From: Lachnospiraceae bacterium
GTDB taxonomy: Bacteria; Bacillota; Clostridia; Lachnospirales; Lachnospiraceae
Direction: 5' to 3'
Length of the DNA stretch: 64,000 nt
Assembly: GCA_017427775.1 (NCBI GenBank)
Contig: JAFRSD010000005.1
Coordinates: 1 to 64,000, forward strand
A program made the position numbers and the translations under genes. The notes below the pieces were generated by a model that saw nothing but the letters and a program-made list of their open reading frames with translations, was not told the DNA's origin and did not search any database. Positions 4,067 through 28,801 of this stretch are shown here, in pieces (positions within the stretch are counted from its first letter, which is position 1; each line of letters begins with the position of its first letter).

Positions 4067-4108
4067 GCTGTTGATTTGCTCCTTCCTAATATTCGTTCAC
4101 GGATGTTG

Positions 4109-7100
4109 TTAGAAATCTTCGCTTTCCGACAGATCATCGCCGCTGCCGTAACTGAACGTTCCGGTAGACGCGTCCGGAGTAACCTCCAGATATCCGTCTG
4201 CAAAATCATCCGTGTTCCTAGGAACATTGTCGCCTTCAATCAGGCTTCTGAGGCTGCGGTCACCGGTATCGATGTCCTCTGCCATAACAACCTCATTGCC
4301 ATCCTCATCGAGAACCGTAACATCCAGCGCAAGAGACTGGAGTTCCTTCAGCAATACCTTGAAGGACTCAGGGATACCGCATTCGGAAATATTATCGCCC
4401 TTGATGATCGCTTCGTAGGTCTTCACACGACCGGTTACATCATCGGACTTAACGGTCAGGATCTCCTGCAGGATGTGAGCAGCGCCGTAAGCTTCCAGCG
4501 CCCAAACTTCCATCTCACCGAAACGCTGTCCGCCGAACTGGGCTTTACCGCCGAGAGGCTGCTGCGTAACGAGGGAGTAAGGACCGGTGGAACGGGCATG
4601 GATCTTATCGTCAACCAGGTGATGCAGCTTCAAATAATGCATGAAGCCGACGGTTACTTCGCCGTCGAAAGGCTCACCGGAACGACCGTCACGGAGCTGA
4701 ACCTTTCCGTCGGGCTTGATCGGAACACCCTTCCACTCTTCTCTGTTCTCCTGATGGGTAAGGAGATATTCCATAACCTCAGGAAGAAGAATATTCTTAT
4801 ATTTCGCCTTGAATTCCTCAAGATCCATGTTGACATAGTCGTTGGCAAGTTCCAGCGTCTCCATAATGTCAACTTCGTTCGCACCGTCAAATACAGGGGT
4901 GGAAACCTTGAATCCGAGTACTGCGGAAGCAAGACTCAGGTGAATCTCCAATACCTGACCGATGTTCATTCGGGAAGGTACGCCGAGCGGGTTCAATACG
5001 ATGTCAAGCGGACGACCGTTCGGAAGGAACGGCATATCCTCAACCGGAAGCACGCGGGAAACAACACCCTTATTACCGTGACGGCCGGCCATCTTATCAC
5101 CAACCTGGATCTTACGCTTCTGCGCGATATAAACGCGAACGCTCTCATTTACTCCCGGAGGAAGCTCATCGCCGTTCTCACGGGTAAATACTTTCGCGTC
5201 AACAATGATACCGAACTCACCGTGCGGAACACGAAGAGACGTATCACGAACTTCGCGTGCCTTCTCACCGAAGATGGCATGGAGCAAACGCTCCTCGGCC
5301 GTCAGCTCGGTCTCGCCCTTAGGCGTTACCTTACCGGCAAGAATATCACCGGCACGAACCTCTGCACCGATGCGGATGATACCTCTCTCATCGAGATCCT
5401 TCAGCGCATCCTCGCCGACACCGGGAACATCACGGGTGATCTCCTCGGGTCCGAGCTTTGTGTCACGAGCCTCTGCCTCATATTCTTCGATATGAATGGA
5501 GGTATATACATCATCCCGTACCAGTCTCTCACTGAGCAGTACGGCATCCTCGTAGTTGTATCCTTCCCAGGTCATGAAACCGATCAGCGGGTTCTTACCG
5601 AGAGCAAGCTCACCGCCGGAAGTGGAAGGACCGTCTGCGATAACCTGGCCTGCCTTAACCGTCTCGCCCTTCTTAACGATAGGTCTCTGGTTAATGCTGG
5701 TACCCTGGTTGCTTCTCGCAAACTTCTGGAGTCTGTACTCATCGCGGGTTCCGTCCTCGGTACGGATCACAATCCGGTTCGCCTCGGAACGCTCAACCAC
5801 GCCTGCCTGCTTGGCAAGTACGCACACGCCGGAGTCTACCGCAACCTTCTCCTCCATACCGGTACCTACAACAGGTGAATCGGTGAAGAGAAGCGGTACA
5901 GCCTGACGCTGCATGTTGGAACCCATGAGGGCACGGTTCGCGTCATCGTTCTGCAGGAACGGGATCATCGCCGTTGCAACGGAAAATACCATCTTAGGCG
6001 ATACGTCCATCAGATCGATCTTGCGCTTTTCGAACAGGGAAGTCTCCGTACGGTAACGTCCGGAAACATTGTTGTTTACGAAATGTCCTTCTGCGTCGAG
6101 GGGTTCGTTAGCCTGAGCAACAATATAACGGTCTTCCTCGTCTGCGGTAAGATATACGACATCGTCGGTTACTACCGGATTCTCGGGATCGTCATGGTTA
6201 ACCTTGCGGTAAGGAGCCTCAACGAAGCCGTACTCGTTGATTCTTGCATAAGAAGCAAGAGAGTTGATCAAACCGATGTTAGGACCTTCGGGGGTCTCAA
6301 TCGGGCACATACGGCCGTAGTGCGTATAATGAACGTCTCGAACTTCGAAACCCGCACGGTCACGGGAAAGACCGCCGGGGCCGAGTGCGGAAAGACGTCT
6401 CTTATGAGTCAGTTCGCCGAGCGGGTTGTGCTGGTCCATGAACTGGGACAGCTGGGAACTTCCGAAGAATTCCTTAACCGCTGCGGTTACGGGCTTGATA
6501 TTGATGAGCGACTGCGGCGTGATCGTGTCGGGATCCTGGGTGGTCATACGCTCACGTACGACACGCTCCATTCTGGACATACCGATACGGTACTGGTTCT
6601 GAAGCAGTTCGCCTACGGCACGGATACGACGGTTTCCGAGATGGTCGATATCGTCCTCGTTGCCGATGCCGTGCTCAAGATGCATGTTATAGTTGATCGA
6701 AGCAAAGATATCCTCACGGGTAATGTGCTTCGGAATCAGGTCGAGAATGTTCTTGTGGATCTCCTCGCAGATTGCTTCCGCATCGGAGTTCTCATCGAGA
6801 ATCTTCTTCAGTACCGGATAGTATACAAGCTCCGTGATACCGAGCTTCTCCTTTGCCTCAGGCGCATAGCACGCAAGGTCAACCATCATGTTGGAAAGAA
6901 TCTTAACGTTGTGCTCCTCGCCCTGCAGCCATACAAAAGGAATGGCAAGGTTCTGGATCTGCTCTGCCAAAGCTTCGGTAGCAACCGTACCGGCCTCGGC
7001 AATCACCTCACCGGTCGTCGTATCGATAACATCCTCGGCAAACTTGTGTCCGGCAATACGGTTCTTGAGCATCAGCTTCTTGTTGAACTTATAACGGCCG

Positions 7101-7921
7101 ACGCGCGCAAGATCGTATCTTCTCGGGTCAAATAACATTCCATGGATCAAAGTCTCCGCGTTCTCAAGTGACGGGGGTTCACCGGGACGCAGTTTCTTAT
7201 ACAGTTCCAGAAGACCGCTCTTATAGTCGTCGGTCGTATCCTTCTGGAAGCTGGCTTCCATCTTCTTCTCTTCGCCGAACAGTTCACGGATCTCTTCGTT
7301 GGTGCCTACGCCGAGCGCACGAACGAGAACGGAGATCGGAACCTTACGGTTTCTATCTACACGAACATAAAAAACGTCGTTGGAATCGGTTTCATATTCA
7401 AGCCATGCACCGCGGTTCGGGATAACGGTACAAGCATATAAAGTCTTTCCGAGCTTATCTCTCGTGATTGCATAATAGATACCAGGAGAACGAACCAGCT
7501 GGCTAACGATTACACGCTCGGCACCGTTGATGACAAATGTGCCGGTCTCCGTCATGAGCGGGAAATCTCCCATGAAGATCGTGTGCTCGTTGATCTCGTC
7601 CGTCTCGGTATTATGAAGGCGTACCTTCACTTTCATCGGTGCGGCATACGTAGCATCTCTTTCCTTGCACTCGTCAATCGTGTACTTCACCTCGTCTTCG
7701 CAAAGCTGATAGTCCACAAATTCCAGGCTAAGGTGTCCGCTGTAGTCATCGATCGGAGAAATATCCTCAAATACCTCGTGCAGTCCTTTCTTCAGAAACC
7801 AGTTATAGGAATCTTTCTGGACCTCAATCAGGTTCGGCATCTCAAGGATTTCCTTCTGTCTCGAATAACTCATTCGAATGCCCTTACCGACTTTAACCGG
7901 ACAAATTCTGTTTTTATCCAT
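4109..7921 (-). CDS. rpoB: DNA-directed RNA polymerase subunit beta
   Basis: This is the beta subunit of RNA polymerase, 1270 residues. The rifampicin-binding region reads [13 protein letters not shown] and [12 protein letters not shown], with the Gln, Asp, His and Ser that commonly mutate in resistance all in the sensitive state. Further conserved blocks are [24 protein letters not shown] and [19 protein letters not shown]. An ATG exists 48 nt further upstream, but the start at 7921 (MDKNR) is preceded by AAGGGGTGA and is preferred. The C-terminus ends in a short acidic, Ser/Asp-rich extension. rplL, its usual upstream partner, is 20 kb away on the other strand. Confidence 0.99.
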
Positions 7922-8094
7922 TGACGTTTTCACCCCTTGAATAGATTTCCTACCGCGCGTTATATACATAAAGAATCAATTCCACCGCATCCGCCCCTTT
8001 TTGAGGCCGGAATGAGGGTCTGAAAAGCAGTTGCTTTTACGCTTTTCATGTGGTATAATTGACATGATTAGGCATATAACACCACAATAGTGCA
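7922..8094 (-). other. rpoB 5' leader
   Basis: About 170 nt of transcript lie between the predicted start site and rpoB. By eye it can form three hairpins: TGTGGT with ACCACA, GAAAAGC with GCTTTTC, and GCCTC with GGGGC just before the ribosome binding site. No known leader family was recognised and no T-tract attenuator is present. Confidence 0.4.
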
Positions 8095-8100
8095 TTTTTC

Positions 8101-8129
8101 ATAGTATCACAACTCTTTCTGATTGTCAA
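8101..8129 (-). promoter_or_regulatory. rpoBC promoter
   Basis: On the minus strand TTGACA (8124-8129) and TACTAT (8101-8106) are separated by 17 nt. The perfect -35 and near-perfect -10 are what a strong housekeeping promoter would have. It gives rpoBC a promoter independent of rplJL. Confidence 0.8.
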
Positions 8130-8207
8130 TCTTGGATTTTCACCAAATGCACACGTGTTTTTGCCCTATTTTTCTCACATTTTACGATTTTTTTACATGA
8201 CAGGTAC

Positions 8208-8249
8208 AAGAAACGGCTGCTGCACCTTTCGGCGCAACAGCCGTACTTT
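8208..8249 (-). terminator. Hairpin after the acidic zinc-ribbon gene
   Basis: Arms starting ACGGCTG and ending CAGCCGT (8213-8244) form a long stem. On the minus strand it is followed by TTTCTTGT, and on the plus strand by ACTTTTT, so it may act in both directions. It lies 34 nt after the stop at 8278. Confidence 0.5.
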
Positions 8250-8277
8250 TTATCTTATCGGTTTTTCAGGCTTCCGG

Positions 8278-10713
8278 TCAGAAATCAATCGGCGTGTCTT
8301 CCTCGTCCGGTTCGTCCTCGTAACCCGAAACGATCAGGTCCGCCAGACTGTAAGCAGCCGCTGCTGCATTGTCCTGCGGCGCGGGATTCTCTGCTTCCTT
8401 TCTGAGATTCATCAGATGCTCGTCGATGTCGAAGGTTTCCTCATTGGTTCCGCTCGGCTCATCATGACCGAAAAACTCTTCCTCATCCTCATCCACGTCG
8501 TAGTCTTCCGAGTGAATGTTAATCTTGAGATCATCCTCGGCAGGCTCTTCCGAAACTTCCTCCTCGATCGTATCTAACGAGATCGGTTCCTCGGCATCCA
8601 TCTTTACGGATTCGTAATCTGCCGCTGTCGGCGCATCCGCGTAAAGCGGAGACTGCTTTCTATGCGGATAATCATCCGTTCTGTCATCGAACAGGCTGTT
8701 AAACAGGAAGTCTTCCGCATCAGGCGTCTGCTGCGGTGCTCCCTCGGAAAGAATATCCTCTAAGGACAGACCTCCGTCAGCCGTCTCCTCCGCCGGTGCT
8801 TCCTCTGCGGTTTCGGCTTCTTCAGAATCGGCCTCTTCGGGAACCGTCATCACATACTCGTCAAGCGGCGCTTCCACAAAGGATCCGAACTTGTCCGCGT
8901 TTCCCTCACCGCGGAACATATCGTCTTCAGCCGGTTCTGCGGCCTTCGCCTCCGGAGCAAAACTCCAATTGGAGAGAAGCTCGTCCACGTTATTGGCGGG
9001 AGCGTCTTCGGATTCCGCCAAATCTTCCGGTTCTTCGGGTTCCTCAGGCTGCTCGGGTTCCTCCATATCTTCGGTTAATTCGGGTTCTTCAGCCTCCTCC
9101 GGCTCTTCGTTATCCGCAAAATCTGCCGCTTCTTCACTATCCTCGGGAAGCGCAGGCTCTTCGTCACCGAAATCGATATCGATCAGATGAGAGGTTTCCC
9201 CGGGCTCAACGGGTTCCTCAGGTAATATAGGCTCTTCGGGCTCCTCGGGAAGTTCAGGTTCTTCAGGTAACTCGGGTTCCTCGGACTCTTCTTCCTCAGG
9301 TAACGAGGGCTCTTCCTCGTCTTCCGGTAATTCCGGTTCGTCAATCTCTATGGATACCGGTGCGCCGGTGTCCTCTTCGTCAAATCCTTCAATCGGAATC
9401 TCAGGTTCTGCTGCTTCCGCGAAGTCTTCCTTCTCAATCTCGACAGAATCAAAGGCGGGTTTCTCAGGTTCCGTCTCACCAAATGCTACCGAAAGAGAAT
9501 CCGCTTCGGCTGCCTCCGGTTCATCGCCGAAATCGATCTTAATCTCGACGGACTCATCGGATTTCACAGGTTCTTCAGGCTCAGCTTCCTTCTCGGGTTC
9601 CTTCTCCGCTTTTCTGAAAGGATTGAACAGGAACGCGAACGGAGTGGCACGCTTCGTCTCTTCCTTCGCTTCGTCAGCTTCCGCAGCCTTTTCTATCTCT
9701 TCCTCGTCGTCCTCATCTTCAGACTCGTCGTCATCCTCGTCTTCGTCAGATTCATCATCGACATCTTCTTCCTCTTCGATATCGTCGTCATCTTCATCTG
9801 ACTCGTCTTCTATATCTTCTTCCTCAGACTCATCTTCTTCGGATTCGTCATCCTCGAGGTCATCTTCTTCGTCGGACTCATCGTCATCGTCTTCATCGTC
9901 GAGATCATCGTCATCCTCCTCAGACTCGTCGTCTAAATCGTCGTCAATGTCCTCCTCATCTTCGTCAGACTCTTCATCATCAAGATCATCGTCATCTTCA
10001 TCCTCTTCGGAATCTTCTTCCTCATCGGATTCGGACTTCGTCTCAGGCTCCTCCAAGAACGAGATCACGGTAATTCCCTCTTCGGGCTCCTCTTCAATCT
10101 CGATCGCAACGCCCTTATCGAGATCCGAGGACTCTTCCTCCGGCTCGTCTGCGGAAGCCTCCTCGGTTTCTTCGGCACTCTCATCGGAAGCCTCTTCGCT
10201 TAACGCCTTCTCCGCTTCCGCCATGATCTCGTTGAAACTGCGCTCAATCTCCGCGGCAGTCTCCTCGACAGACTTCTTCAGGTCGGCAATGGGCTCCTCA
10301 AGGCCGCTTGTGAAGGATTTAACAGCCTCCTCAACGGAATTTCCGACTTCCTTGCAAACCTCTTCTGCCTCACGGACAGCGCGGTCGATGACCTCCTCTG
10401 CTTCCTCTTCGGCGGCTTTGCGCTCAGCGGCATTCTGATCGGTTCCGAAGGAACGGATGGCTTTCAGAATGTCCTCAAAGCCCTTCGTTTCCTCACCGGA
10501 CCAATTCCGGTCCTTCCCGAGAAGGAACTTGAGGTTCAGTAAAACACTTACCCCGAGAGCCGTTCCGAGCAATTTCACAAGGCTGCTCGTCAGCTTCTCC
10601 GTATCGCCGTCTCCGGCTCCGCGCTCTGTATTACATTTCCATATCTGCTCACCGCAGTACGGGCAAAAATTCACATCATTCGGAAAATCAGACCCACATT
10701 TGCTACACTTCAT
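8278..10713 (-). CDS. Zinc-ribbon protein with extreme acidic low-complexity body
   Basis: This 811-residue protein is not of a recognised named family. Residues 3-20 form a zinc ribbon (CxxC, ten residues, CxxC). Residues about 43-66 are a moderately hydrophobic stretch that could be membrane-associated. Residues about 95-190 are Ala/Glu-rich and predicted helical or coiled coil. Residues about 228-340 are almost purely Asp, Glu and Ser. Then come Pro-Glu repeats (EEPELPEEPE type) around residues 430-540 and an acidic C-terminus. ATG at 10713 has AGGAGG 7 nt upstream, and the gene has its own promoter and terminator, so it is a single-gene transcript next to rpoB. The Ser-rich frame on the other strand is a mirror of the acidic codons. 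The function is unknown; a scaffold, a cation buffer or a nucleic-acid mimic are all only guesses. Confidence 0.85.
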   Translation of the reverse strand: MKCSKCGSDFPNDVNFCPYCGEQIWKCNTERGAGDGDTEKLTSSLVKLLGTALGVSVLLNLKFLLGKDRNWSGEETKGFEDILKAIRSFGTDQNAAERKAAEEEAEEVIDRAVREAEEVCKEVGNSVEEAVKSFTSGLEEPIADLKKSVEETAAEIERSFNEIMAEAEKALSEEASDESAEETEEASADEPEEESSDLDKGVAIEIEEEPEEGITVISFLEEPETKSESDEEEDSEEDEDDDDLDDEESDEDEEDIDDDLDDESEEDDDDLDDEDDDDESDEEDDLEDDESEEDESEEEDIEDESDEDDDDIEEEEDVDDESDEDEDDDESEDEDDEEEIEKAAEADEAKEETKRATPFAFLFNPFRKAEKEPEKEAEPEEPVKSDESVEIKIDFGDEPEAAEADSLSVAFGETEPEKPAFDSVEIEKEDFAEAAEPEIPIEGFDEEDTGAPVSIEIDEPELPEDEEEPSLPEEEESEEPELPEEPELPEEPEEPILPEEPVEPGETSHLIDIDFGDEEPALPEDSEEAADFADNEEPEEAEEPELTEDMEEPEQPEEPEEPEDLAESEDAPANNVDELLSNWSFAPEAKAAEPAEDDMFRGEGNADKFGSFVEAPLDEYVMTVPEEADSEEAETAEEAPAEETADGGLSLEDILSEGAPQQTPDAEDFLFNSLFDDRTDDYPHRKQSPLYADAPTAADYESVKMDAEEPISLDTIEEEVSEEPAEDDLKINIHSEDYDVDEDEEEFFGHDEPSGTNEETFDIDEHLMNLRKEAENPAPQDNAAAAAYSLADLIVSGYEDEPDEEDTPIDF

Positions 10714-18801: not shown

Positions 18802-21192
18802 CTTATTACTCCTTTCTTCCTTTGCGCCGGCGTTCGTGCCGGATGTTTCCGTGAATTCCTTCCCGCCGGCCGCTTCCGCGCCGGTTCTCACCGTCTCCTT
18901 CGTCCGGTCGTTGTCCGCCGAACTATTCTTTGAACCCGCCTTCCGCGCGGTGATACGGAACCGGTTCAGCCGCAGCGCGTTCATGCAAACCGTAAAGCTT
19001 GAGAGGCTCATGGCCGCCGCGCCGATCATCGGGTTCATCTCCCACCGAAACAGTCCTGCTGCCAGCGGGATGCAGATCATATTATAAAAGAATGCCCAGA
19101 ACAGGTTCTCATGAATATTTCGAAGCGTGGCTCTCGAAAGGCGCACCGCATTCACGACATCCGTCAGGGAATCATTCATCAAAACAACGTCCGCGGAATC
19201 AACCGCAACATCGGTTCCCGCGCCGACGGCGATGCCGATATCGGCCCTTGTAAGTGCCGGCGCATCATTGATGCCGTCACCGACCATGATCGTCCGCCCT
19301 TTTTCGGAAAGTTCCCGGATTACGGCTTCCTTGCCGTCCGGCAGCACGCCCGCGATCACTTCATCGACGCCCGCCGCCTTGCCGATCGCGCCGGCCGTGC
19401 GTTCATTGTCGCCTGTCAACATAACAATGCGGAGTCCCAGTTTCTTCAGTTGCCCGATAGCGTCCGCGGAGTCTTCACGGATCGTATCCGCCACGGCTAT
19501 GATGCCGGCCAGCCTGCCGTCTTCCGCGAAATAAAGCGGCGTTTTGCCCTGTTCCGACAGTTCGCGTGCCCTTTCGGCCAATGCTTCGGATATGACGGCG
19601 ACCGTCCCTATATAGGCAGCGTTTCCGCCGTGAACCGTGTGTCCGTTCCAAACGCCGGTGAGTCCGTTTCCGGGAAGTGCCGTAAAACCGCTGACCTCCG
19701 ATACCGTAATGCCCCGCTCTGCTCCTTCGCTGACAACCGCCTTCGCAAGCGGATGCTCGCTCTTCGCTTCCAGGGAGCATGCTCTCTCAAAGAGTTCCTT
19801 CTCCGTCATTCCTTCGGCCGGGTATACATCGGTCACCCGCGGTTCGCCCGTCGTGATCGTTCCTGTTTTATCAAGCGCGACGATACGCGTCTTTCCCGCA
19901 ACTTCAAGTGCTTCGCTTGTCTTAAAAAGAATGCCGTTCTTCGCGCCGACGCCGTTTCCTACCATGATTGCCACGGGCGTCGCCAGCCCGAGCGCGCACG
20001 GACACGAGATAACAAGCACGGAGATGCCCCTCGCAAGCGCGAAAGCGGCCGTCTTTCCGGCAAGCAGCCATCCGCCCGTTACGATCAGCGCGATCAGGAT
20101 TACCGCGGGAACGAAGATGCCGGATACTTTGTCCGCGATCCTCGCGATCGGTGCCTTGGTCGCCGCCGCGTCGCTCACCATGCGGATGATCTGCGACAGC
20201 GTCGTATCTTTCCCGACTCGTACTGCCCTGCAGCGCATATACCCGGAGGTATTGATCGTCGCCGCACTGACCTGGTCGCCCTCCTTCTTATCCACGGGGA
20301 CGGATTCTCCCGTAAGCGCCGCCTCATTGACCGCGCTCATTCCGGATATCACGATTCCGTCAGCGGGAATGCTGTCACCGGGTCTTACGACGAATACGTC
20401 GCCGGCCATAACCTCTGCAACCGGAACCTCTGTCTCTTCACCGTTTCGAAGAAGCACGGCCGTCTTCGGTGCAAGCCGCATCAGGCTCTTAAGCGCGTTG
20501 GTCGTTCTGCCCTTTGACATGGCTTCGAGCATCTTTCCGACAGTGATCAGTGCCGGGATCATAGCTGCCGATTCAAAATACAGCTGATTATGATACATAT
20601 GCATGAGTCCGCTGTCCGGCGTACCGGAAGTATGCTTCACGCACATCATGATAAAGACATATACGCTCCAGGAAAAGGAAACCGCCGAGCCGAGTGCGAC
20701 AAGCGTATCCATATTGGGTGCCCCGTGCAAAACCGCGCGGAACCCGCTCGTAAAAAACTTCCTGTTGATGACCATCACGATCAGAGCGAGAACCATCTGG
20801 ACAACGGTTAATGCAATATGGTTCCCCGCAAGTCCTGCCGGAAGCGGAAGCCCCAGCATATTATGTCCCATCGTGATATACATGAGGATGGCCAGAAATG
20901 CCGCTGACAGAATAAGACGCCGTTTTAATCGCGGCGTCTCGCGGTCTGCTAACACGTCTCCCGGATCAGCGGCAGCGCCGCCGTCCGGGCTTTCCTCCAT
21001 CAGGCTGGCACCGTATCCGGCTTCCGTGACCGCCTGAATGATATCGGCGCTCGAAGCCGTTCCTGACACTCCCATGGAATTTGTTAAAAGGCTTACCGAA
21101 ACATCCGTTACTCCCGGGACGCCGGCAACAGCCTTCTCGACTCTTGCCTGGCATGCAGCACAGCTCATTCCGGTTACCTGGTATTTGTCCAT
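18586..21192 (-). CDS. copA: Copper-translocating P1B-type ATPase with C-terminal HMA fusion
   Basis: This 868-residue Cu(I) export ATPase acts in the cytoplasmic membrane. It has an N-terminal HMA domain (GMSCAAC, residues 8-14), TGES in the actuator domain, the CPC metal site (SCPCALGLATP), DKTGT with the phosphorylated Asp, and GDGINDAPAL. The normal enzyme would end near residue 745. Here a linker of about 50 residues, rich in Lys, Glu, Thr and Ala, follows. The last 71 residues are a second HMA domain with GMMCGHC. The second domain begins at a Met with its own ribosome binding site, described separately. The gene starts 55 nt after serine acetyltransferase and may be cotranscribed with it; no operator of CsoR or CopY type was recognised. 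Confidence 0.95.
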   Translation of the reverse strand: MDKYQVTGMSCAACQARVEKAVAGVPGVTDVSVSLLTNSMGVSGTASSADIIQAVTEAGYGASLMEESPDGGAAADPGDVLADRETPRLKRRLILSAAFLAILMYITMGHNMLGLPLPAGLAGNHIALTVVQMVLALIVMVINRKFFTSGFRAVLHGAPNMDTLVALGSAVSFSWSVYVFIMMCVKHTSGTPDSGLMHMYHNQLYFESAAMIPALITVGKMLEAMSKGRTTNALKSLMRLAPKTAVLLRNGEETEVPVAEVMAGDVFVVRPGDSIPADGIVISGMSAVNEAALTGESVPVDKKEGDQVSAATINTSGYMRCRAVRVGKDTTLSQIIRMVSDAAATKAPIARIADKVSGIFVPAVILIALIVTGGWLLAGKTAAFALARGISVLVISCPCALGLATPVAIMVGNGVGAKNGILFKTSEALEVAGKTRIVALDKTGTITTGEPRVTDVYPAEGMTEKELFERACSLEAKSEHPLAKAVVSEGAERGITVSEVSGFTALPGNGLTGVWNGHTVHGGNAAYIGTVAVISEALAERARELSEQGKTPLYFAEDGRLAGIIAVADTIREDSADAIGQLKKLGLRIVMLTGDNERTAGAIGKAAGVDEVIAGVLPDGKEAVIRELSEKGRTIMVGDGINDAPALTRADIGIAVGAGTDVAVDSADVVLMNDSLTDVVNAVRLSRATLRNIHENLFWAFFYNMICIPLAAGLFRWEMNPMIGAAAMSLSSFTVCMNALRLNRFRITARKAGSKNSSADNDRTKETVRTGAEAAGGKEFTETSGTNAGAKEERSNKMTVTVKIDGMMCGHCEANVKKTLEALPFVEFAEVSHEKGTAVLTLCGAFDEQTVKKAVEDKDYAYCGVLEA

Positions 21193-21247
21193 TTCCTATC
21201 CTTTCCTCATCGTCAGTGCGCTGTTCGCGCCGCACCTGTCTGCAACT

Positions 21248-22207
21248 TCAGATGATATAGTACCACTCGTTGCCCTGGCTGATCTCCTCGGCATGACGTT
21301 CACCGGCTGTCCGGTATTCCATCTCGAGGTTCTTCATGCTGACTCTCGTGTTGGCATCGATGGACCGCGTAATGAACGTGTTGCCGCCGATGACGGTATT
21401 CTCACCGATCACGGTCTCGCCGCCGAGGATCGACGCATTGGCGTAGATCGTTACATTATCGCAGATCGTAGGATGACGCTTCTTGCCGGAGAGTTTCTGG
21501 CCGCCTCTCGTGGAAAGAGCTCCGATCGTAACACCCTGATAAATCTTCACGTTGTTCCCGATGATCGAAGTCTCGCCGACTACGATACCGGTACCGTGGT
21601 CAATAAAGAAATGCCGCCCGATCTCCGCGCCGGGATGAATATCGATTCCGGTCTCCGAATGCGCATACTCGGTCATAAGTCTCGGAAGTACCGGAACATG
21701 CAGCTTATGAAGCTCATGCGCGATCCGGTATACGGTGATCGCCATGAGACCGGGATACGCGAGAATGATCTCTTCCATGCATGCCGCAGCAGGATCGCCG
21801 TCAAATGCAGCGATCAGGTCGCTTTCGATCAGCTCTCTGACAGCGGGAATCCGCTCAAAGAACCGTTTGCACAGGCGGTAGCCTTCCTCTTCGCGGCTCT
21901 CGTCGTCCATGGTGCCCTTCTTCACAAAAAGCGTAAGCGCAAGCGTTACCTGCTTATGCAGTCTGCAGAAGCAGTCTTCAATGGTAACCGCAAGCGTGTA
22001 TTCCGGACTGTAAGTTGACACGGAACGGTCACGGAAATAGCCGGGGAACACGATCCTGAACAATGCGTTAACCAGTTCCCGGACCTCATCCTTATCCGGA
22101 GAATTCGCGACGGTCAGACCGTCGATCGTCTTGCCGCCTTCCATATCCTTGTATATATTCCGGACGATCTCACTGATTTCTTTCTCTCTGTTCTGATTCA
22201 TAGCCAT
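21248..22207 (-). CDS. Serine O-acetyltransferase (EpsC/CysE type)
   Basis: This enzyme transfers acetyl from acetyl-CoA to L-serine, the first step of cysteine synthesis. It has 319 residues. Residues 1-190 are a helical N-terminal domain longer than that of E. coli CysE, as in the EpsC group. The left-handed beta-helix follows, with hexapeptide repeats such as IDIHPGAEIG, FIDHGTGIVVGE and IIGNNVKIYQGVTIG. The His of DHGTG is the catalytic one, and the GGQKLSGKKRHP loop binds CoA. GGAGG lies 9 nt before the first ATG of MAMN. A -10 like TATAAT is at 22289-22294 but its -35 is poor, and no T-box leader was seen. Confidence 0.93.
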   Translation of the reverse strand: MAMNQNREKEISEIVRNIYKDMEGGKTIDGLTVANSPDKDEVRELVNALFRIVFPGYFRDRSVSTYSPEYTLAVTIEDCFCRLHKQVTLALTLFVKKGTMDDESREEEGYRLCKRFFERIPAVRELIESDLIAAFDGDPAAACMEEIILAYPGLMAITVYRIAHELHKLHVPVLPRLMTEYAHSETGIDIHPGAEIGRHFFIDHGTGIVVGETSIIGNNVKIYQGVTIGALSTRGGQKLSGKKRHPTICDNVTIYANASILGGETVIGENTVIGGNTFITRSIDANTRVSMKNLEMEYRTAGERHAEEISQGNEWYYII

Positions 22208-22288
22208 AGCCGTTTCCTCCGCGTTTATTTCGCCGGCGGCATTGCCCGCCGTATTGCAATCTCATTTTCGGTTAAACAACACTTTTCT

Positions 22289-22294
22289 ATTATA
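22289..22294 (-). promoter_or_regulatory. Possible -10 of the serine acetyltransferase gene
   Basis: The minus strand reads TATAAT about 80 nt upstream of the start codon and just past the flavin reductase terminator region on the plus map. No good -35 is seen at 16-18 nt. Between it and the gene lies a small hairpin of CGGC and GCCG arms. Confidence 0.35.
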
Positions 22295-22311
22295 CGTTAT
22301 AACAGATTTTC

Positions 22312-22345
22312 CCGAAAAAGAAAAGGATTCGAAACCGAATCCTTT
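22312..22345 (-). terminator. Terminator of the FIST-EAL / sensor / flavin reductase operon
   Basis: A perfect 10-bp stem, AAAGGATTCG with its complement, has a 4-nt loop and is followed on the minus strand by TTTCTTTTTC. It lies 22 nt after the flavin reductase stop. Confidence 0.85.
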
Positions 22346-22367
22346 CAGAAATCTTATTCCGGACACT

Positions 22368-22940
22368 TTAGTCCTGTTTCTTAACCGAATAGCCGAACGA
22401 ACCGAGTTTTGCGCCGAGGGCGTGATACACGCCGTGCGAATAGGCAATAAGACCTGCCTTTTCCAGGTCAAACCTGCCGTCCGCGTCCATATAGCGGTCA
22501 TCCACCGTCACGCCGACCACTTCCGCAATATACATGTCATGCGCGCCGAGACGCTCCGTCTTCTTTACTTTGCAGTACAAGTTCACGGGGCTTTCCGCAA
22601 TCGCCGGCGTCTCCATGAAATCCGAAACGTACGGTGTCAGATTCTTCTCGCGGAATTTGTCGAATTTCTTACCGGAACGCACGCCGCACCAGTCACAGGC
22701 TTCGGTCAGTTCCTCGGTTACAAGATTCACGACAAATTCGCCGCTCTCTTCGATGATCTCATGGGAATACCGCTCCGGGCGGACCGAGATGGAAAGCATG
22801 ACCGGATCGGAGCAGATTGTTCCCGCCCACGCTACCGTTACGATGTTCGGGCGCTCGTTCTCTCCTTTCTTCTTGCTGCTTACCATTACGACCGGCACGG
22901 GATAGAGCATGTTGCCGGGTTTCCAGTTCTGCTTAGCCAT
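22368..22940 (-). CDS. Flavin reductase-like domain protein
   Basis: This 190-residue protein has the split-barrel FMN-binding fold of flavin reductases. It starts with a PVPVVMVSS strand, has NIVTVAWAGTICSDPVMLSISV in the FMN site region and SGEFVVNL after it. Members reduce flavins with NAD(P)H or act as FMN-dependent reductases. A Cys-rich spot (CDWCG) lies near residue 80. It follows the LacI-like sensor by 15 nt and ends the operon. A link between flavin or redox state and the c-di-GMP gene upstream is possible but not shown. Confidence 0.88.
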   Translation of the reverse strand: MAKQNWKPGNMLYPVPVVMVSSKKKGENERPNIVTVAWAGTICSDPVMLSISVRPERYSHEIIEESGEFVVNLVTEELTEACDWCGVRSGKKFDKFREKNLTPYVSDFMETPAIAESPVNLYCKVKKTERLGAHDMYIAEVVGVTVDDRYMDADGRFDLEKAGLIAYSHGVYHALGAKLGSFGYSVKKQD

Positions 22941-22955
22941 TGTTATTCCTCCGTT

Positions 22956-24713
22956 TTATGTTTCCGTTTCGTGATTATTCTCGTTAATGTATAAAATCTG
23001 TGCAAGCTGTTTCGCGACAAATTCGCCTCTGTCCGCCACCGTTCCGGTGACCTCGGTAATCAGAACGCCGTATATCCTGCTGCCGTAAAATACGAGCGAA
23101 GCGATGTACGCGCCGCACTTCGGAAGCTCGGTCCGGTCAAGCATCGCATCGAGTCTGCAAAGTCTCCGTTCGGGAGACAGTACTCTCAGCTCACCTCCCT
23201 TTACCACACACATCAGGCGGGCGGTTTCCGGGAACGAAACGCCTCCCTCCTTCGGAACCTGCACCGGCTTTTCAAACAGATACAGGGCCGCGTTGGTGAA
23301 ACTCAGCTTATCCAGGTTCCGGACGATTGTCTCTTCGGTAACGATATTCCCGCCTTCAAACTGGGTTCCGCACACGAAGAAATCACGGATACGTTCCCGT
23401 TCCACCTTGAGGTTGGCATCGAACCGGTTGGCATCGGCCGCCATGGAAACGATCGCGCGGTCCTTCATGTAGGAGAAACACCGGTTCGTCATCATATTGG
23501 CAAGCGGAGATTTCTGGGATTTGTTCATGCCGTTCTGCAGACGCTCGATACACCGTACCATATGCGCCGGATCCGTATAACGCATCGCGCCGTTGGAGAA
23601 GAAGATGTCGATCAAACGCCGGATCTCGGTAAATTCCTCGGTCGACATGGAACTTGTGACCATGGCATGCAGCATTCTCTTGATAAATTCATAGAACAGT
23701 CTGCGAAGATCCACTTCCTCCCGGTCATGAACCTCAGACTGATACCGGTAGAAGCAGTCGTCGAACATACGGTAGACAAATGCCTCGTCGATCCTGAGCA
23801 TTTCCATCACCGTGTATTCATACATCGCGTATTCGAGTGATTCCCTGCCGTAAAGCCTTGTCGGGAGAACCTCGGACTGAACAGTCTCTCCTTTCATCAT
23901 ACGGAGTAACAGTTCAACCGCCTTTTCGCCGAGCGTTATCCCATCGGCACCGATGGAGGCGAGCGGAGGAAGCATGGTTCCCGAGAATTTTGTATTGTCA
24001 AATCCGAACACCTGGATGTCCCGCCCGGGCTTCAGTCCGCGCTCCTTCAGCACGCGGTACAGCGGAACGGCAACCTGGTCATTGACGCAGAAGATTGCTT
24101 CCGCATCGGGATTCCTATCCATCAGCCGGATTGCGGCAGGCATGGCATCAATGGACATATCCGTCTTCTCGTACATATCGTCCGTAAACTCGATATGCTT
24201 CTCTGCAAGGCAGGTCCGGTAGATTTCCTTCCGGTCCTGTGCATCCGCATTATCGTCACGGCCGCCAAGCATGATAAACTTGCGCAGACCCTTCACGTTA
24301 ACAAGATAATCAACCGCTTCCCGGATTCCCTTCTCATTATCGTACCGTACCATGACGCCGTCCGTTACGGCTGTCGAGATGAATACCCTCGGAACACGGG
24401 CATAATTGGAAAACTCCCCGTTGAAAAAACTGTTGCCGCTTACACCGCTGATATTCGGAAGCGTAAGAAGCAGTCCGTCAATCCGGACAACCTCCTCGAG
24501 TCCGTAGATCAAATTATGTACGCGGGTATCGAAATACTTGCTGCTCTTTCCCTTCTCCAGCTGCTCATGAAGTCCCGGAAGCACCAAAAGACGCACGTTC
24601 GGGTATCCGGCTGCGGCAAGCTGCACGCTCCGGATGATTTCCTTCGCATAGTCAATGGCAAGGTCTTCGATAATGAGTCCGATCGTCTTCCGTTCGTCCG
24701 TAAATCGTTCCAT
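22956..24713 (-). CDS. LacI-like periplasmic-binding-protein sensor without HTH or GGDEF
   Basis: This 585-residue cytoplasmic protein begins directly with a type I periplasmic-binding fold (residues about 8-290) as in LacI-family regulators, with FCVNDQVAVPLYRVLKERG and a DIQVFGFDN segment. No DNA-binding domain precedes it. A helical region (about 300-430) and a GAF-like alpha/beta domain (about 430-575) follow. In related clostridial proteins this arrangement normally leads into a GGDEF domain, and here the protein stops before one. It lies 31 nt after the FIST-EAL gene and 15 nt before flavin reductase. I infer a ligand-sensing partner for the c-di-GMP protein; the ligand is unknown. Confidence 0.82.
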   Translation of the reverse strand: MERFTDERKTIGLIIEDLAIDYAKEIIRSVQLAAAGYPNVRLLVLPGLHEQLEKGKSSKYFDTRVHNLIYGLEEVVRIDGLLLTLPNISGVSGNSFFNGEFSNYARVPRVFISTAVTDGVMVRYDNEKGIREAVDYLVNVKGLRKFIMLGGRDDNADAQDRKEIYRTCLAEKHIEFTDDMYEKTDMSIDAMPAAIRLMDRNPDAEAIFCVNDQVAVPLYRVLKERGLKPGRDIQVFGFDNTKFSGTMLPPLASIGADGITLGEKAVELLLRMMKGETVQSEVLPTRLYGRESLEYAMYEYTVMEMLRIDEAFVYRMFDDCFYRYQSEVHDREEVDLRRLFYEFIKRMLHAMVTSSMSTEEFTEIRRLIDIFFSNGAMRYTDPAHMVRCIERLQNGMNKSQKSPLANMMTNRCFSYMKDRAIVSMAADANRFDANLKVERERIRDFFVCGTQFEGGNIVTEETIVRNLDKLSFTNAALYLFEKPVQVPKEGGVSFPETARLMCVVKGGELRVLSPERRLCRLDAMLDRTELPKCGAYIASLVFYGSRIYGVLITEVTGTVADRGEFVAKQLAQILYINENNHETET

Positions 24714-24744
24714 AATTGCCTCCTGCCCGTTCTTTCGGTCAATC

Positions 24745-27357
24745 TCACACAGCTATATCCTGCGCCGGCTTTGAAAACAGATAGCCCTGCGAATAATCCA
24801 CGCCGTACTTGATCAGCATGTCCTGAATCGCCTGATTCTCTACAAACTCCGCCACAACCTGAAGCTTCTGTTTGCTGAGCTGCTTCCAGCCCATGATCAG
24901 CGTGATCAGATTCTGTGCCGCGGGATTCTCGCAGCACTCCTTCACGATGGAGCCGTCAATCTTAATAAAATCGGAATGAATGCTTACGATATGCTGCAGG
25001 TTCGAATACCCGCTTCCGAAATCGTCGATGGATACCAGTCCTCCGAGCTGATGGATGCGGTCCACGAATACCTCCACGGCATCATATGCGTCAACATCTT
25101 CATTCTCCAGAATCTCAAAGATAAAGCTCTCCGGATGGTTCGCGGAAGAGAGAGAGTCATATATGAAATCCGTCATCTCGCGGTTCTTGATGTCACGCAT
25201 TGCCAGATTAATGCTGACGCTGACATCTTCGCAGTTACGGAATTTCTCAAATACCTTACGCACCATGATGAACGATATCGAATCATACAGCAGTCCGTAG
25301 GAACGCGCCACATCAAGGAACCGGTACGGCGTATAGATCGTGCCGTTCTCATCGGCGAGACGCATCAGCGACTCATAGTGGTGTATGGTTCCCGTGGCAT
25401 TATCGTGAATTCCCTGATAATACGGGATGATCGTGTCATGCGCGATCGCGTAATTGATAACGTTCACCATATGATAACGCTCGCGGATGCTCTCCTCGTC
25501 AGACTGAAAGCTTCTCGCATCACAGACATAGAACTGCATATTCCGGTTCATCATTTCGATACGCGCCGAATTATACACGTTCATCAGATTCTCCACCGTC
25601 GCGCCGTTGATGATGCAGAAGATCGGGACGATGGCGATCAGATCCTCGGAAGCCGCAAACAGTTCCTTCTGAAGCTGCTCCATATGCCTTCGCATAGCGG
25701 GAAGGGAACAGGTGTAGGACGGCACGGCGATCGCCGCCATCCAGTCGTTGAGCAGATACATCTTATAATCATGCTTGCGGGCGAAATCGTAGCATTTGCC
25801 GACGAAACTGCGCTGCGTCAGTGAAATCTTATCTGCGTCAAATACGACCTTCATCCCGGATGTGTCCGGAACCTGAATATAGCAGACCCGGTCATATCCG
25901 CGAAGCTTCATGTCCATGCTGAGGGCAGCCTCATTCGGGATGTCCTCCTGCTCGGAATACAGCAGTTTCAATTCACAGTCGCGTACGAAACCGCGTAATC
26001 CCGCGGCTGCGTTTGCAAGCGAAGGCCTCCGCTCGATCCGCGTCTCGATCTCCATCAGGTGACGAAGCAGTGCCTGGTTGTCTGCGGCCAGCGAATCGGT
26101 ATGCGAAAATGCGTACGGATTACACTCCTGCGTCATCGGATTCTCTCCGACGGCTGCTACCGTGAAAGCACCGTCCGCCAGTACATTCTTTTCGCCGGCC
26201 CAGGCGATTTCGCCGTCCATGACGCATCCGCTCATATTGGAATTCTCATAAGCGGAAAGTTCCCATTTGGCGCAGTTCGAATAGATGCGGGAACGCGCGG
26301 CGGCAAGATAAGCGATGATGGTTTCCGCCTTTTCGAAATTCTCAATGCGGCGGAACATCGCGTGGTTATCGGCTATGATCTTGCGGTCGTAGATAAAGGC
26401 ACGTCGCAGACTCCGGCCGATTGTTACATTATGATTGGTAAGCAGACGCTCCCGCTTCGCATCCGGATCAATGTCCGGGCGGGCCTTATAGGCTTCGGCA
26501 TACGCAGGGTCATCCGGCGGGAACAGTTCCGCAAGACTGCAGCCTTCCACGTACCGCATCGGCACGGGGATATCATCCCGGTCGGCATATACAAGCGGGA
26601 ACAGTTCGAAAATCTCCGGGCGTTTCTTCAATGCTTCGCCGATACCGGTACGGTATTCCTTTGCAGCGTCTACTTCCCCGAGTTTCAGGATGCAGTTTCC
26701 GAACGCGTCGGAAATCTCATACGAGTCTCCGATTGCCTGCGCGCCGGTCGCATAATCCGAAATGCAGGAGACCTCTTTGCCCGCAAGCGTGCAGAGGAGG
26801 AGCCCCTGTTCCATATATCCGGTCTCATCAAAGACAAATCCGCCGCTTTCCTTCTGACTTCCGATATCGGAACGGTTCACAATGCCGCCGACCATTCGGA
26901 CGCCGGGAGCACATTGGTTCACATGGTCAACCATCTGCTCGAAATTATAAAACTTTCCCGCAAGAAACGCGAACATCATCTTCATCTCAGACTGCATCAG
27001 CGCAGGCTTTGCGATCATGCATACATTGTCCGCGGACAGCGGTTCGCCGGTCTTTTCATCGCTTGTCGGAAGCATCATCGTACGGATGCTCGCGCCCTGC
27101 GTCTGGGTTACCGAAATGATGCATTGGTCAAGTGAAAGCTTGCCGGCGTTGATGACCGCCGAAGTACTCGTTCCGATGATCTTCGCCTCGGGGATGATGG
27201 ATTTGATGAAACGGGCAAGCTCCACAGCCTCTTCGCCGAGATGGATGGCCGTATGGATCCGGATCAGGATATCCCCTTCATCCGGTTCACGCGTCATCCG
27301 GGAAAGCGTCGTCTCAAGACGCGCTCTCGATATGTATTGAAAACTCCACGTAAACAT
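24745..27357 (-). CDS. FIST sensor - degenerate GGDEF - EAL phosphodiesterase
   Basis: This 870-residue protein has no signal peptide or membrane segment. Residues about 25-390 match the FIST_N and FIST_C sensory domains. Residues about 430-615 look like a GGDEF domain that has lost the GG[DE]EF motif but keeps the tail leading into YYQGI. The EAL domain (about 625-868) retains the metal and catalytic acids: ESL in place of EAL, the Asn of INLAM, the Glu of FEILE, IDDFGSGYS, the Lys of FIKIDGS, and AEFVEN, so it is probably an active c-di-GMP phosphodiesterase. FIST is thought to bind small molecules such as amino acids. It heads an operon with a LacI-like sensor and a flavin reductase; AAAGGAGG precedes the ATG. 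Confidence 0.9.
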   Translation of the reverse strand: MFTWSFQYISRARLETTLSRMTREPDEGDILIRIHTAIHLGEEAVELARFIKSIIPEAKIIGTSTSAVINAGKLSLDQCIISVTQTQGASIRTMMLPTSDEKTGEPLSADNVCMIAKPALMQSEMKMMFAFLAGKFYNFEQMVDHVNQCAPGVRMVGGIVNRSDIGSQKESGGFVFDETGYMEQGLLLCTLAGKEVSCISDYATGAQAIGDSYEISDAFGNCILKLGEVDAAKEYRTGIGEALKKRPEIFELFPLVYADRDDIPVPMRYVEGCSLAELFPPDDPAYAEAYKARPDIDPDAKRERLLTNHNVTIGRSLRRAFIYDRKIIADNHAMFRRIENFEKAETIIAYLAAARSRIYSNCAKWELSAYENSNMSGCVMDGEIAWAGEKNVLADGAFTVAAVGENPMTQECNPYAFSHTDSLAADNQALLRHLMEIETRIERRPSLANAAAGLRGFVRDCELKLLYSEQEDIPNEAALSMDMKLRGYDRVCYIQVPDTSGMKVVFDADKISLTQRSFVGKCYDFARKHDYKMYLLNDWMAAIAVPSYTCSLPAMRRHMEQLQKELFAASEDLIAIVPIFCIINGATVENLMNVYNSARIEMMNRNMQFYVCDARSFQSDEESIRERYHMVNVINYAIAHDTIIPYYQGIHDNATGTIHHYESLMRLADENGTIYTPYRFLDVARSYGLLYDSISFIMVRKVFEKFRNCEDVSVSINLAMRDIKNREMTDFIYDSLSSANHPESFIFEILENEDVDAYDAVEVFVDRIHQLGGLVSIDDFGSGYSNLQHIVSIHSDFIKIDGSIVKECCENPAAQNLITLIMGWKQLSKQKLQVVAEFVENQAIQDMLIKYGVDYSQGYLFSKPAQDIAV

Positions 27358-27408
27358 ACAGACCTCCTTTCCGGCGTGTTAACATGTCGCTTCGGCGCAT
27401 AGTATTAA

Positions 27409-27437
27409 GTATACTTTAGCACATTCCGAATACCCGT
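27409..27437 (-). promoter_or_regulatory. Weak promoter candidate for the FIST-EAL operon
   Basis: On the minus strand TTGTAC and TAAAGT are separated by 17 nt, just after the YbjQ terminator. Both boxes are imperfect, and TATACT lies a few bases downstream as an alternative -10. Confidence 0.35.
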
Positions 27438-27441
27438 ACAA

Positions 27442-27482
27442 TAAAAAACAGAGACCCTCCGGCGAAGCCGAAGGAATCTCTG
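27442..27482 (-). terminator. Terminator of the YbjQ gene
   Basis: On the minus strand a stem beginning CAGAGA and ending TCTCTG (27449-27482), with a GGCTTCGCC tip, is followed by TTTTTTA. Confidence 0.85.
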
Positions 27483-27527
27483 CTCTGCTGACAGATTATC
27501 CGTCACGTCAATGTTTCGGAACCCCTT

Positions 27528-27848
27528 TTACTGTTCCCTGTGACATTTTACCGCGGTACCGTAAGCCATAACCTCGGCTGCTCCCTGCATGATGGCGCTT
27601 GTTGCGTAACGAACGCCGACGATCGCGTCCGCACCGAGGCGGCCCGCATCCTGAATCATGCGCTCGGTAGCTACTCTTCTCGCATCGTCCATCATCTCCG
27701 TGTATCCGCTGATCTCACCGCCGACGATCGTCTTCAGACCGGCCATGAAATCCTTTCCGATGTGCTTCGAATGAACGGTGCTTCCCTTTGCGATTCCGAG
27801 AATCTCCAGCTTCATTCCGTCAATACTTTCCGTAGTGGTAATGATCAT
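27528..27848 (-). CDS. YbjQ/DUF74 family protein
   Basis: This 106-residue protein is of the YbjQ (DUF74) family. The family is sometimes called heavy-metal-binding, but its role is not established. It shows the family pattern: an N-terminal TTTESIDG strand, then GYTEMMDDARRVATERMIQDAGRLGADAIVGVRY, and AEVMAYGTAV near the end. Members are small pentamers with a beta-rich fold. GGAGGG precedes the ATG. It is a single-gene unit with its own promoter and terminator, divergent from rplJ. Confidence 0.9.
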   Translation of the reverse strand: MIITTTESIDGMKLEILGIAKGSTVHSKHIGKDFMAGLKTIVGGEISGYTEMMDDARRVATERMIQDAGRLGADAIVGVRYATSAIMQGAAEVMAYGTAVKCHREQ

Positions 27849-27911
27849 AGTCTTTCCCTCCCATTTTTTCTGGACCGAAGGACCGCTCTCGCGTCTTTTA
27901 GGTCAACGTTC

Positions 27912-27940
27912 ATTATACCGCGAAAATGCCGTCCTGTCAT
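27912..27940 (-). promoter_or_regulatory. Promoter of the YbjQ gene
   Basis: On the minus strand ATGACA (27935-27940) and TATAAT (27912-27917) are separated by 17 nt. Confidence 0.75.
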
Positions 27941-28011
27941 CCGGAAAATCCGTGGAATCTCACGTTTTCCGCAAGAATCGCATATTATTAAGAAATAATG
28001 GATATTTTCGG

Positions 28012-28040
28012 TTGACATCACGCAGAAAATGTGTTATAAA
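28012..28040 (+). promoter_or_regulatory. rplJL promoter
   Basis: TTGACA (28012-28017) and TATAAA (28035-28040) are separated by 17 nt, directly upstream of the L10 leader. Confidence 0.85.
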
Positions 28041-28044
28041 CATC

Positions 28045-28180
28045 GTTGACTGCCGAAGACAGTAGGTGCCGCAAGGCGTAAGCGATTCATGGAAATCCGC
28101 CAACCGAGGATATGTCAGCATTTAATGATGAGTATTTGTGCTGCTTTTCCGCTTCGGAAGAGGAGCATTTTTTTATACCT
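28045..28180 (+). ncRNA. L10 ribosomal protein leader
   Basis: The leader starts GTTGACTGCCGAAGACAGTAGGTG and contains GCGTAAGCG and a distal CCGCCAACCGAGG, which matches the Firmicutes L10 leader bound by L10(L12)4. The family uses an L10-stabilised fold to allow the terminator downstream to form when L10 is in excess. A terminator is present at 28138-28174, so attenuation is likely here. The leader moved together with rplJ when the cluster was rearranged. Confidence 0.88.
28138..28174 (+). terminator. Attenuator in the L10 leader
   Basis: GTGCTGCTTTTCC pairs with the arm at 28156-28168 (one mismatch, two G-U pairs) and is followed by T6. It ends 48 nt before rplJ. Confidence 0.8.
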
Positions 28181-28222
28181 CTGAATGTCGCGACAGTCGA
28201 AACTATACAGGAGGTAATTCAC

Positions 28223-28717
28223 ATGGCTAAGGTTGAGCTGAAGAAACCTATCATCGACGAGATCAGCAAGTATGTTGCCGACGCAAAGGCAGTCGTTCTT
28301 GTTGACTATCGCGGATTGACGGTTGAACAGGACACCAAGCTTCGTAAGTCCCTGAGAGAAGGCGGCGTTGTATACAAGGTATACAAGAACACCTACCTCA
28401 AGAAGGCATTTGCCGGCACGGTTTACGAAGCACTTGCTAAGCATCTCGATGGACCTACCGCCGTTGCATTCGGATTAGAGGATGCAACCGCTCCCGCAAG
28501 ACTTCTTTCCGACGGAATGAAGATCTCGGACAAGCTCGAGTTCAAGGGCGGCGTTGTAGACGGAACCTATTATGATGCAGATGGCTGCAAGGTTGTTGCA
28601 AACATCCCTTCCAAGGAAGTTCTTATTTCCAGACTTCTTGGCAGCTTGCAGTCCCCGATCGCGAATCTTGCTCGCGTTCTCAATCAGATTGCAGAGAAGA
28701 AAGGCGAGGTTGCTTAA
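28223..28717 (+). CDS. rplJ: Ribosomal protein L10
   Basis: This 164-residue large-subunit protein forms the base of the L7/L12 stalk. It shows VVLVDYRGLTVEQDTKLR, VYKNTYLKKAF and a C-terminal helix that carries L12 dimers. The start MAKVELKK at 28223 has AGGAGG 9 nt upstream. An open frame extends upstream through the leader but is not coding. It forms an operon with rplL and is on the strand opposite to all other ribosomal and polymerase genes of the window. Confidence 0.98.
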   Translation: MAKVELKKPIIDEISKYVADAKAVVLVDYRGLTVEQDTKLRKSLREGGVVYKVYKNTYLKKAFAGTVYEALAKHLDGPTAVAFGLEDATAPARLLSDGMKISDKLEFKGGVVDGTYYDADGCKVVANIPSKEVLISRLLGSLQSPIANLARVLNQIAEKKGEVA

Positions 28718-28801
28718 TCTATCTGCACAGTTCGTATGACGCTGTCATACAGTCAGGCCGTATAACGGCATAATCAATTAAAAATTTGGAGGAATTATAA
28801 C

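Follow-up and report, generated by a model that had tools for sequence, protein, structure and literature searches.

The described system nearest in logic to the locus reported here is NspS-MbaA of Vibrio and Sinorhizobium, in which a separate polyamine-binding protein controls an enzyme that both makes and degrades cyclic di-GMP (c-di-GMP). MbaA is a membrane GGDEF-EAL protein and is encoded beside nspS. The locus in question is a pair of adjacent genes within a 64,000-nucleotide (nt) stretch of DNA from a Lachnospiraceae bacterium (assembly GCA_017427775.1, contig JAFRSD010000005.1, positions 1 to 64,000), hereafter the window. Gene 1 (24745-27357, minus strand; 870 amino acids) encodes a predicted c-di-GMP phosphodiesterase with a FIST sensor; gene 2 (22956-24713, minus strand; 585 amino acids) encodes a LacI-type binding domain followed by helical and GAF-like parts, and is proposed here to be a sensor subunit.

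NspS is a periplasmic protein, whereas the products of genes 1 and 2 do not look exported; the binding protein here is of LacI type and ends in a GAF-like tail, and a FIST sensor is built into the enzyme itself. For FIST itself the nearest system is NosP-NosK/NahK-NarR, where a FIST protein is tied to c-di-GMP turnover with sensor and output on separate proteins. NosP is described as a single-domain heme FIST that senses nitric oxide and acts on a kinase, whereas here FIST is fused to EAL and the operon contains no kinase gene. LacI-type (Peripla_BP_3)-GGDEF proteins from the same bacterial family share the N-terminal domain of gene 2 and a related C-terminal part, but gene 2 has a FIST-EAL gene as its fixed neighbour and is without GGDEF; of two LacI-GGDEF genes viewed, L036 adjoins an acetylesterase gene and L037 a gene for a GH31 glycosidase. 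The GGDEF-EAL tandems PA0861, DosP, PA0575 and MorA, together with LapD, have the GGDEF-like plus EAL fold seen at residues ~465-870 of gene 1; gene 1 differs from them in its FIST sensor, in the missing GGDEF motif and in having a second sensor encoded by a separate gene.

Each architecture is known by itself, since a 2022 review (PMC8846402) covers both FIST-FIST_C and Periplas_BP, but as sensors of c-di-GMP proteins the two have received little study. The review places FIST-FIST_C on some GGDEF, EAL and HD-GYP proteins, states that little is known of its substrate binding and signal propagation, and counts the Periplas_BP domain of LacI regulators, which may bind sugars, among the sensory domains with no more than generic predictions. 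FIST on c-di-GMP proteins was already known from another paper as well (PMC10552763). Autoinducer-2 (AI-2) was considered as a ligand and set aside; a study of AI-2 in the rumen centres on dCache receptors (PMC9540692). No report of a FIST-EAL/LacI-type pair was found by title or abstract, in a search whose coverage takes in few subscription journals. We propose that the products of genes 1 and 2 constitute a two-protein, two-input c-di-GMP phosphodiesterase in which gene 2 would be the sensor subunit, a reading to which we assign a probability of roughly 0.55. Two inputs acting on c-di-GMP breakdown are the best reading because gene 2 comes from a lineage of diguanylate-cyclase sensors and because the pair is conserved.

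Conservation of the gene pair

A collection of species genomes was scanned with the FIST region alone (five proteins), and the best 80 of 112 confirmed relatives were taken as loci for comparison. In 77 of these 80 loci the FIST-EAL gene has a relative of gene 2 as its co-directional neighbour. Measured between open reading frames (ORFs), the gap is 31 nt in the window and at most 50 nt in 74 of 76 pairs; the two frames overlap in 22 pairs, with a distance of exactly −4 in ten. Most-upstream starts were used throughout, and overlaps such as −110 are due in part to that choice. Locus L123, in which the FIST-EAL frame is broken and the distance reads 951, was kept out of the 76 gaps. No partner was counted in three loci: L088, whose contig ends 487 nt past gene 1; L120, also at a contig end, with a partner stub of 115 amino acids at 29.5% identity (cut 30%); and L118, which is weighed below. 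Four truncated partners (L079, L089, L122 and L125) were set aside, leaving 73 complete ones. Since the two genes are nearly always encoded side by side in gut and rumen clostridia, they probably function as one signal-responsive unit.

As a control on synteny, redundancy was removed at 90% identity of gene 1, and the 502 other neighbour genes in the remaining 69 loci were compared. Gene 2 was present in 66 of the 69, and the next two commonest neighbour families in 15 each. One of the latter, as read from a single sequence, starts like the ATPase of an ATP-binding cassette transporter; the other is a GGDEF/EAL family of 22 genes, 17 of which match the GGDEF model and 12 the EAL query. The adjacency of genes 1 and 2 far exceeds that of other neighbours. 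Distances among the gene 1 sequences also correlate with those among their gene 2 partners (r 0.76 over 69 pairs), and none of 1000 permutations gave a value as high.

The linkage holds when approached from gene 2. Four other genomes among 200 of the family (G180, G079, G089 and G112) contain a gene 2 relative of more than 40% identity, each with a FIST-EAL gene directly upstream of it. A reverse test over 397 family genomes gave strong matches to both profiles in the same five genomes: at least 480 bits for the FIST part, where the match in G180 is split (482 and 480) and the next best scores 249, and at least 804.8 for gene 2, where the next best scores 405. The sole other genome of the same genus gave no match to the FIST profile (E 0.001) and none to gene 2 (1e-60). 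The pair is patchy in distribution but tightly linked.

By family, the 80 loci fall into 32 Lachnospiraceae, 23 Oscillospiraceae, 4 Eubacteriaceae and 21 unplaced, and the named strains with the pair include Ruminococcus albus 8 and Eubacterium xylanophilum ATCC 35991. Titles mentioning ruminant samples account for 28 loci, and 26 are RUG/RUI isolates, which we take to be of rumen origin; attachment to plant fibre matters in that habitat.

Any match to the FIST profile was found in 39 genomes, and neighbours were viewed in the five strong and eight weaker cases. Two of the weaker relatives have layouts of their own. At L190:2129-8074 (minus strand) the FIST-EAL gene is followed after 33 nt by a gene for a TPR-GGDEF protein of 1116 amino acids, a pairing with a cyclase-type protein; at L189:5533-8025 (minus strand) FIST (549 amino acids) and EAL (272 amino acids) are encoded separately by neighbouring genes, so that the fusion is split in two.

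The FIST-EAL protein

Pfam places a FIST_N domain at residues 44-227 of gene 1 (26677-27228, minus strand; PF08495, 1.2e-15) and an EAL domain at residues 634-864 (24766-25458, minus strand; PF00563, 7e-48); FIST_C gave no Pfam match, and its fold is seen by structure comparison. An AlphaFold model was made from an alignment of gene 1 with 76 relatives (77 sequences), with a mean predicted local distance difference test score (pLDDT) of 85.1 and a predicted template modelling score (pTM) of 0.60; rows L123, L133, L131, L112 and L071 were omitted from this alignment and from that of gene 2. Residues 1-407 of the model resemble the FIST protein FBXO22 (8s7d_D; Z 23.5, 258 aligned, root-mean-square deviation (rmsd) 2.9). 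Residues ~465-870 match GGDEF-EAL tandem structures, best PA0575 (5m3c_B; Z 27.2, 393 aligned, rmsd 6.8), and across the tandems and LapD Z runs from 24 to 27 and rmsd from 7 to 15, the high values arising because the two domains are placed differently. From the fold matches to FBXO22 and to the tandems, the domain order is modelled as FIST_N-FIST_C-GGDEF-like-EAL.

The modelled GGDEF-like fold (residues ~466-615; 25513-25962, minus strand) has no GGDEF motif at its hairpin turn in any of the 77 aligned sequences. The turn in gene 1 reads L-N-D-W, with W539 present in all 77, and the sole match to a GGDEF regular expression, GSDQL in L103, lies off the turn. An hhalign comparison of residues 440-632 with a 6-sequence GGDEF alignment, which is a weak test, detected no relation. 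Hydropathy reaches 1.84 in one stretch, at residue 566, and in the model this stretch falls within the core of the domain.

When gene 1 is lined up with solved EAL domains, E662, N717, E748, E751, D778, D779, K799, E837 and Q857, which we take to be the metal- and substrate-binding residues, prove invariant in all 77 sequences. The EAL site is probably catalytically intact, and gene 1 is predicted to be a c-di-GMP phosphodiesterase. A sequence-only reading of this DNA had named a FIST protein whose EAL site is intact, which the Pfam matches and the invariant residues bear out; the FIST_C and GGDEF-like folds had escaped it. The same nine positions bear on another possibility, namely that gene 1 is no enzyme but binds c-di-GMP as a receptor of the LapD/FimX type, with gene 2 as its signalling partner. 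In LapD and FimX certain catalytic EAL residues have been lost, and the GGDEF motif is lacking. Both are among the top fold matches of gene 1, whose GGDEF-like domain is motif-less as theirs are, yet the unbroken conservation of the catalytic positions makes a receptor role very improbable.

Within the FIST part (26224-27255, minus strand), C79 and C378 occur in 77 of 77 sequences and H35 and H39 in 76 of 77; these four are candidate ligand or redox residues.

The LacI-type protein

Residues 8-295 of gene 2 (23829-24692, minus strand) form a LacI-type binding fold according to the structure model and fold comparison, and Pfam matches Peripla_BP_3 at 141-292 (4e-23). No helix-turn-helix was matched by Pfam; NCBIfam models of LacI regulators align to gene 2 only from profile position 58 onwards, and the AlphaFold model (mean pLDDT 85.9, pTM 0.81) opens directly with strand 1 of the binding fold. 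Compared with CcpA, LacI and RbsR, residues 3-295 give Z ~25 over 262-266 residues, and the top Foldseek match is the cellobiose regulator CelR. R161, N211 and D239, conserved in 70, 69 and 70 of 70 aligned sequences respectively, are equivalent in position to LacI residues that contact the inducer.

The C-terminal part (residues 300-585; 22959-23816, minus strand) consists of helices at 302-449, a mixed alpha/beta domain at ~455-556 and a terminal helix at 559-584. Pfam GAF gave weak matches in 3 of 70 family sequences, with a best E of 0.097, and no GGDEF domain was matched in gene 2. Beyond position 558, 62 of the 70 rows have 19-43 residues; the remaining eight are carriers of GGDEF. No signal-peptide-like start was seen in gene 2 (19-residue hydropathy maximum 0.74 in the first 40 residues, with no dedicated predictor run). 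The ratio of non-synonymous to synonymous substitution rates (dN/dS), which is rough because dS exceeds 1, was 0.06-0.15 in three comparisons and indicates purifying selection. The description of gene 2 as a cytoplasmic sugar-type binding protein, made in the sequence-only reading, thus holds for a LacI-type domain with no signal-peptide-like start, and omits the C-terminal part of 285 residues.

Origin of the LacI-type protein

Beyond the pair itself, most of the nearest kin of gene 2 are LacI-GGDEF proteins, at 22-38% identity. All ten outgroup proteins carry GGDEF (E 2e-32 or better; L036 also by Pfam), and the gene 2 relative on contig C15 of the source genome is likewise a LacI-GGDEF protein. 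On this kinship gene 2 is placed in a lineage of diguanylate-cyclase sensors. Among the complete partners, 8 of 73 have a C-terminal GGDEF domain (8 of 70 by Pfam), which follows directly on the C-terminal helix in L078 and L083 and comes ~150 residues later in the six others; the motif is intact in seven of the eight and missing in L129.

A tree of 75 partners and 10 outgroup proteins, from which L032, L034 and L035 were omitted as lying on the same contigs as L130, L103 and L108, has the GGDEF-less form at its base and the carriers in three nested, starred clades. One early loss of GGDEF followed by three gains, four changes in total, is as short as any alternative account; this order of events is supported by the tree, though not forced by it, and the same may be said of the descent of gene 2 from a cyclase through loss of the catalytic domain. 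In a tree of the GGDEF domains themselves, those of the partners fall at two separate places (2 and 6 rows), apart from a single starred clade (97*) of eight outgroup domains. The separation of partner from outgroup domains favours re-acquisition over retention; some partners apparently re-acquired GGDEF, and likely did so more than once. The reconstructed history would be that of a cyclase apparently losing its enzyme domain, being kept beside the opposing enzyme, and regaining the domain in some lineages.

The same kinship could be read otherwise, with gene 2 regulating a diguanylate cyclase in trans, perhaps as a heterodimer in which the terminal helix joins it to a LacI-GGDEF protein; the operon would then combine a phosphodiesterase with a regulator of a cyclase. 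Such a role would suit the descent of gene 2, the presence of at least one LacI-GGDEF protein in the source genome, the partners that themselves carry GGDEF, and the four loci (L101, L109, L124 and L126) in which a LacI-GGDEF gene stands directly upstream of the pair. We think it quite unlikely, as further GGDEF or EAL genes occur near the pair in just 21 of the 80 loci, against 77 for gene 2 (FIST-EAL being the query).

Proposed mechanism

The proposed sequence of action is as follows. Gene 1, which has a FIST sensor of its own and a GGDEF-like domain that has no motif, would hydrolyse c-di-GMP through its EAL domain. Gene 2, a LacI-GGDEF diguanylate cyclase reduced to its sensory half by the loss of GGDEF, would act in the cytoplasm and bind a small ligand there, probably a sugar-like one; its GAF-like end and terminal helix would then serve to change how active gene 1 is. 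Direct contact between the two products, the class of the ligand and the direction of the effect are what we infer. A fuller picture, which we offer tentatively and at somewhat less than even odds, is of a heteromeric phosphodiesterase in which a "beheaded" cyclase serves as allosteric subunit, sugar-like and FIST cues are integrated, riboswitch-controlled surface proteins are the output, and GGDEF, regrafted in some lineages, places a cyclase within the same complex. The idea that two inputs meet on c-di-GMP breakdown had been raised from the sequence for all three genes of the operon; it finds support for genes 1 and 2, in the 77 of 80 loci and the kinship with cyclase sensors, and not for the trio.

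Several observations weigh against a two-protein phosphodiesterase. Conserved adjacency means a shared task and does not by itself mean contact, and correlated distances are expected from vertical descent or co-inheritance alone. L118 is a complete locus in which FIST-EAL has no partner within 6 kb downstream, a true miss. None of the eight weaker FIST-EAL relatives (L152 and L185-L191) has a LacI-type partner; the flank is visible in six, the contigs of L152 and L188 ending before it, and since those six have none, a FIST-EAL enzyme can do without such a partner. Conversely, L041 and L192 are gene-2-like and GGDEF-less with no FIST-EAL gene nearby. The GAF-like label of the gene 2 C-terminus (~455-584) is given by topology only, the GGDEF-like fold of gene 1 is known from the structure model alone, and the strongly supported branches of the short GGDEF-domain tree fit a single origin of the partner GGDEF domains.

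Some of these points would sit well with separate action, in which the two genes share an operon or regulon, such as a response to a carbon source, with gene 1 a FIST-controlled phosphodiesterase and gene 2 directed at another target. What is seen is adjacency, the six weaker relatives with a visible flank all have FIST-EAL by itself, and L041 and L192 have the converse. Set against this are the near-exclusive pairing across three named families, the overlapping frames in 22 of 76 pairs and the variability of the other neighbours, and we consider separate action unlikely. A joint phosphodiesterase thus remains our preferred reading, and the pair supplies dozens of natural homologues in which LacI-type and FIST sensing by c-di-GMP proteins can be studied together.

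The flavin reductase gene and operon layout

Gene 3 (22368-22940, minus strand; 190 amino acids) follows gene 2 after 15 nt and encodes a flavoredoxin-like flavin reductase that is specific to one clade. Pfam matches Flavin_Reduct at 13-149 (1.3e-28), and the closest solved relative is flavoredoxin (2d5m, 5.8e-26). A relative of gene 3 is found near the pair in 8 of the 80 loci, all within the nine closest (L065-L073), downstream of the pair in seven and upstream in L066; the other 72 loci, including L067, have none. The trio was accordingly rejected as a conserved unit. The flavin mononucleotide reductase named in the sequence-only reading is a flavin reductase, and its place in a general three-gene unit is what fails: the survey of co-occurrence suggested there kept the pair and lost the trio.

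Gene 3 may be a clade-specific passenger or a redox link. Taken furthest, the latter would make the trio a redox switch, with the flavoredoxin-like protein feeding electrons or flavin to FIST or GAF. The presence of gene 3 in eight of the nine closest loci, its dN/dS of 0.05-0.11, which indicates purifying selection, and the conserved cysteines and histidines of the FIST part could be cited for such a switch; its absence from 72 loci, L067 among them, and its upstream position in L066 make the idea hardly credible.

All three starts are preceded by a Shine-Dalgarno-like AGGAGG or GGAGG, by inspection of the sequence. A terminator-like hairpin of 11 pairs lies 3' of gene 3 (22321-22346, minus strand), and another (27455-27475, minus strand) falls in the interval between gene 1 and the upstream gene at 27528-27848. 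Individual hairpins of this kind are merely suggestive because the background of the scan is high: 14 terminator-like sites were found in 21000-28800, against 6.6 +/- 2.3 in shuffled sequence. The three genes, their gaps of 31 and 15 nt and a shared terminator had been noted earlier; the ORFs agree, and the hairpin is terminator-like only.

Surroundings and possible output

The 21 loci with further GGDEF or EAL genes in their flanks hold 30 such genes in 660,555 bases, or 45 per Mb, eight of the 30 being supplied by the similar loci L132 and L141. As a rough yardstick, the source genome has 9 distinct GGDEF/EAL frames in 2.63 Mb, or 3.4 per Mb. Adjoining the pair in L090 (11405-14785, minus strand) is a gene for a single-chain Peripla_BP_3 plus EAL protein of 1126 amino acids; in this fusion nature offers a precedent for an EAL domain controlled directly by a LacI-type one. 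In the source genome, L195 (G000:C15:10000-26000) encodes at 4049-10060 (minus strand) a LacI-GGDEF protein, a galactokinase-like GHMP kinase and an HTH-PAS-GGDEF-EAL protein consecutively (HTH, helix-turn-helix), a second link there of a sugar-type sensor to c-di-GMP genes.

Searches of the source genome for possible outputs gave no match to PilZ or flagellin, nor to the c-di-GMP-II riboswitch, for which the control genomes gave none either. Three c-di-GMP-I riboswitches are present, one single and one tandem (G000:C7:4872-4981 and C49:26769-27043; L199 and L200). The genes that follow them, at distances of 117 and 128 nt, encode large proteins. By eye the two proteins have similar signal-peptide-like N-termini; one has 1997 amino acids with InlB-type repeats, and the other is cut by the contig end. 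The output in this genome is plausibly riboswitch control of large secreted proteins by c-di-GMP. Elsewhere in the window, a ribosomal protein L10 leader (RF00557) at 28035-28182 (plus strand) precedes an L10-like reading frame, an ordinary arrangement.

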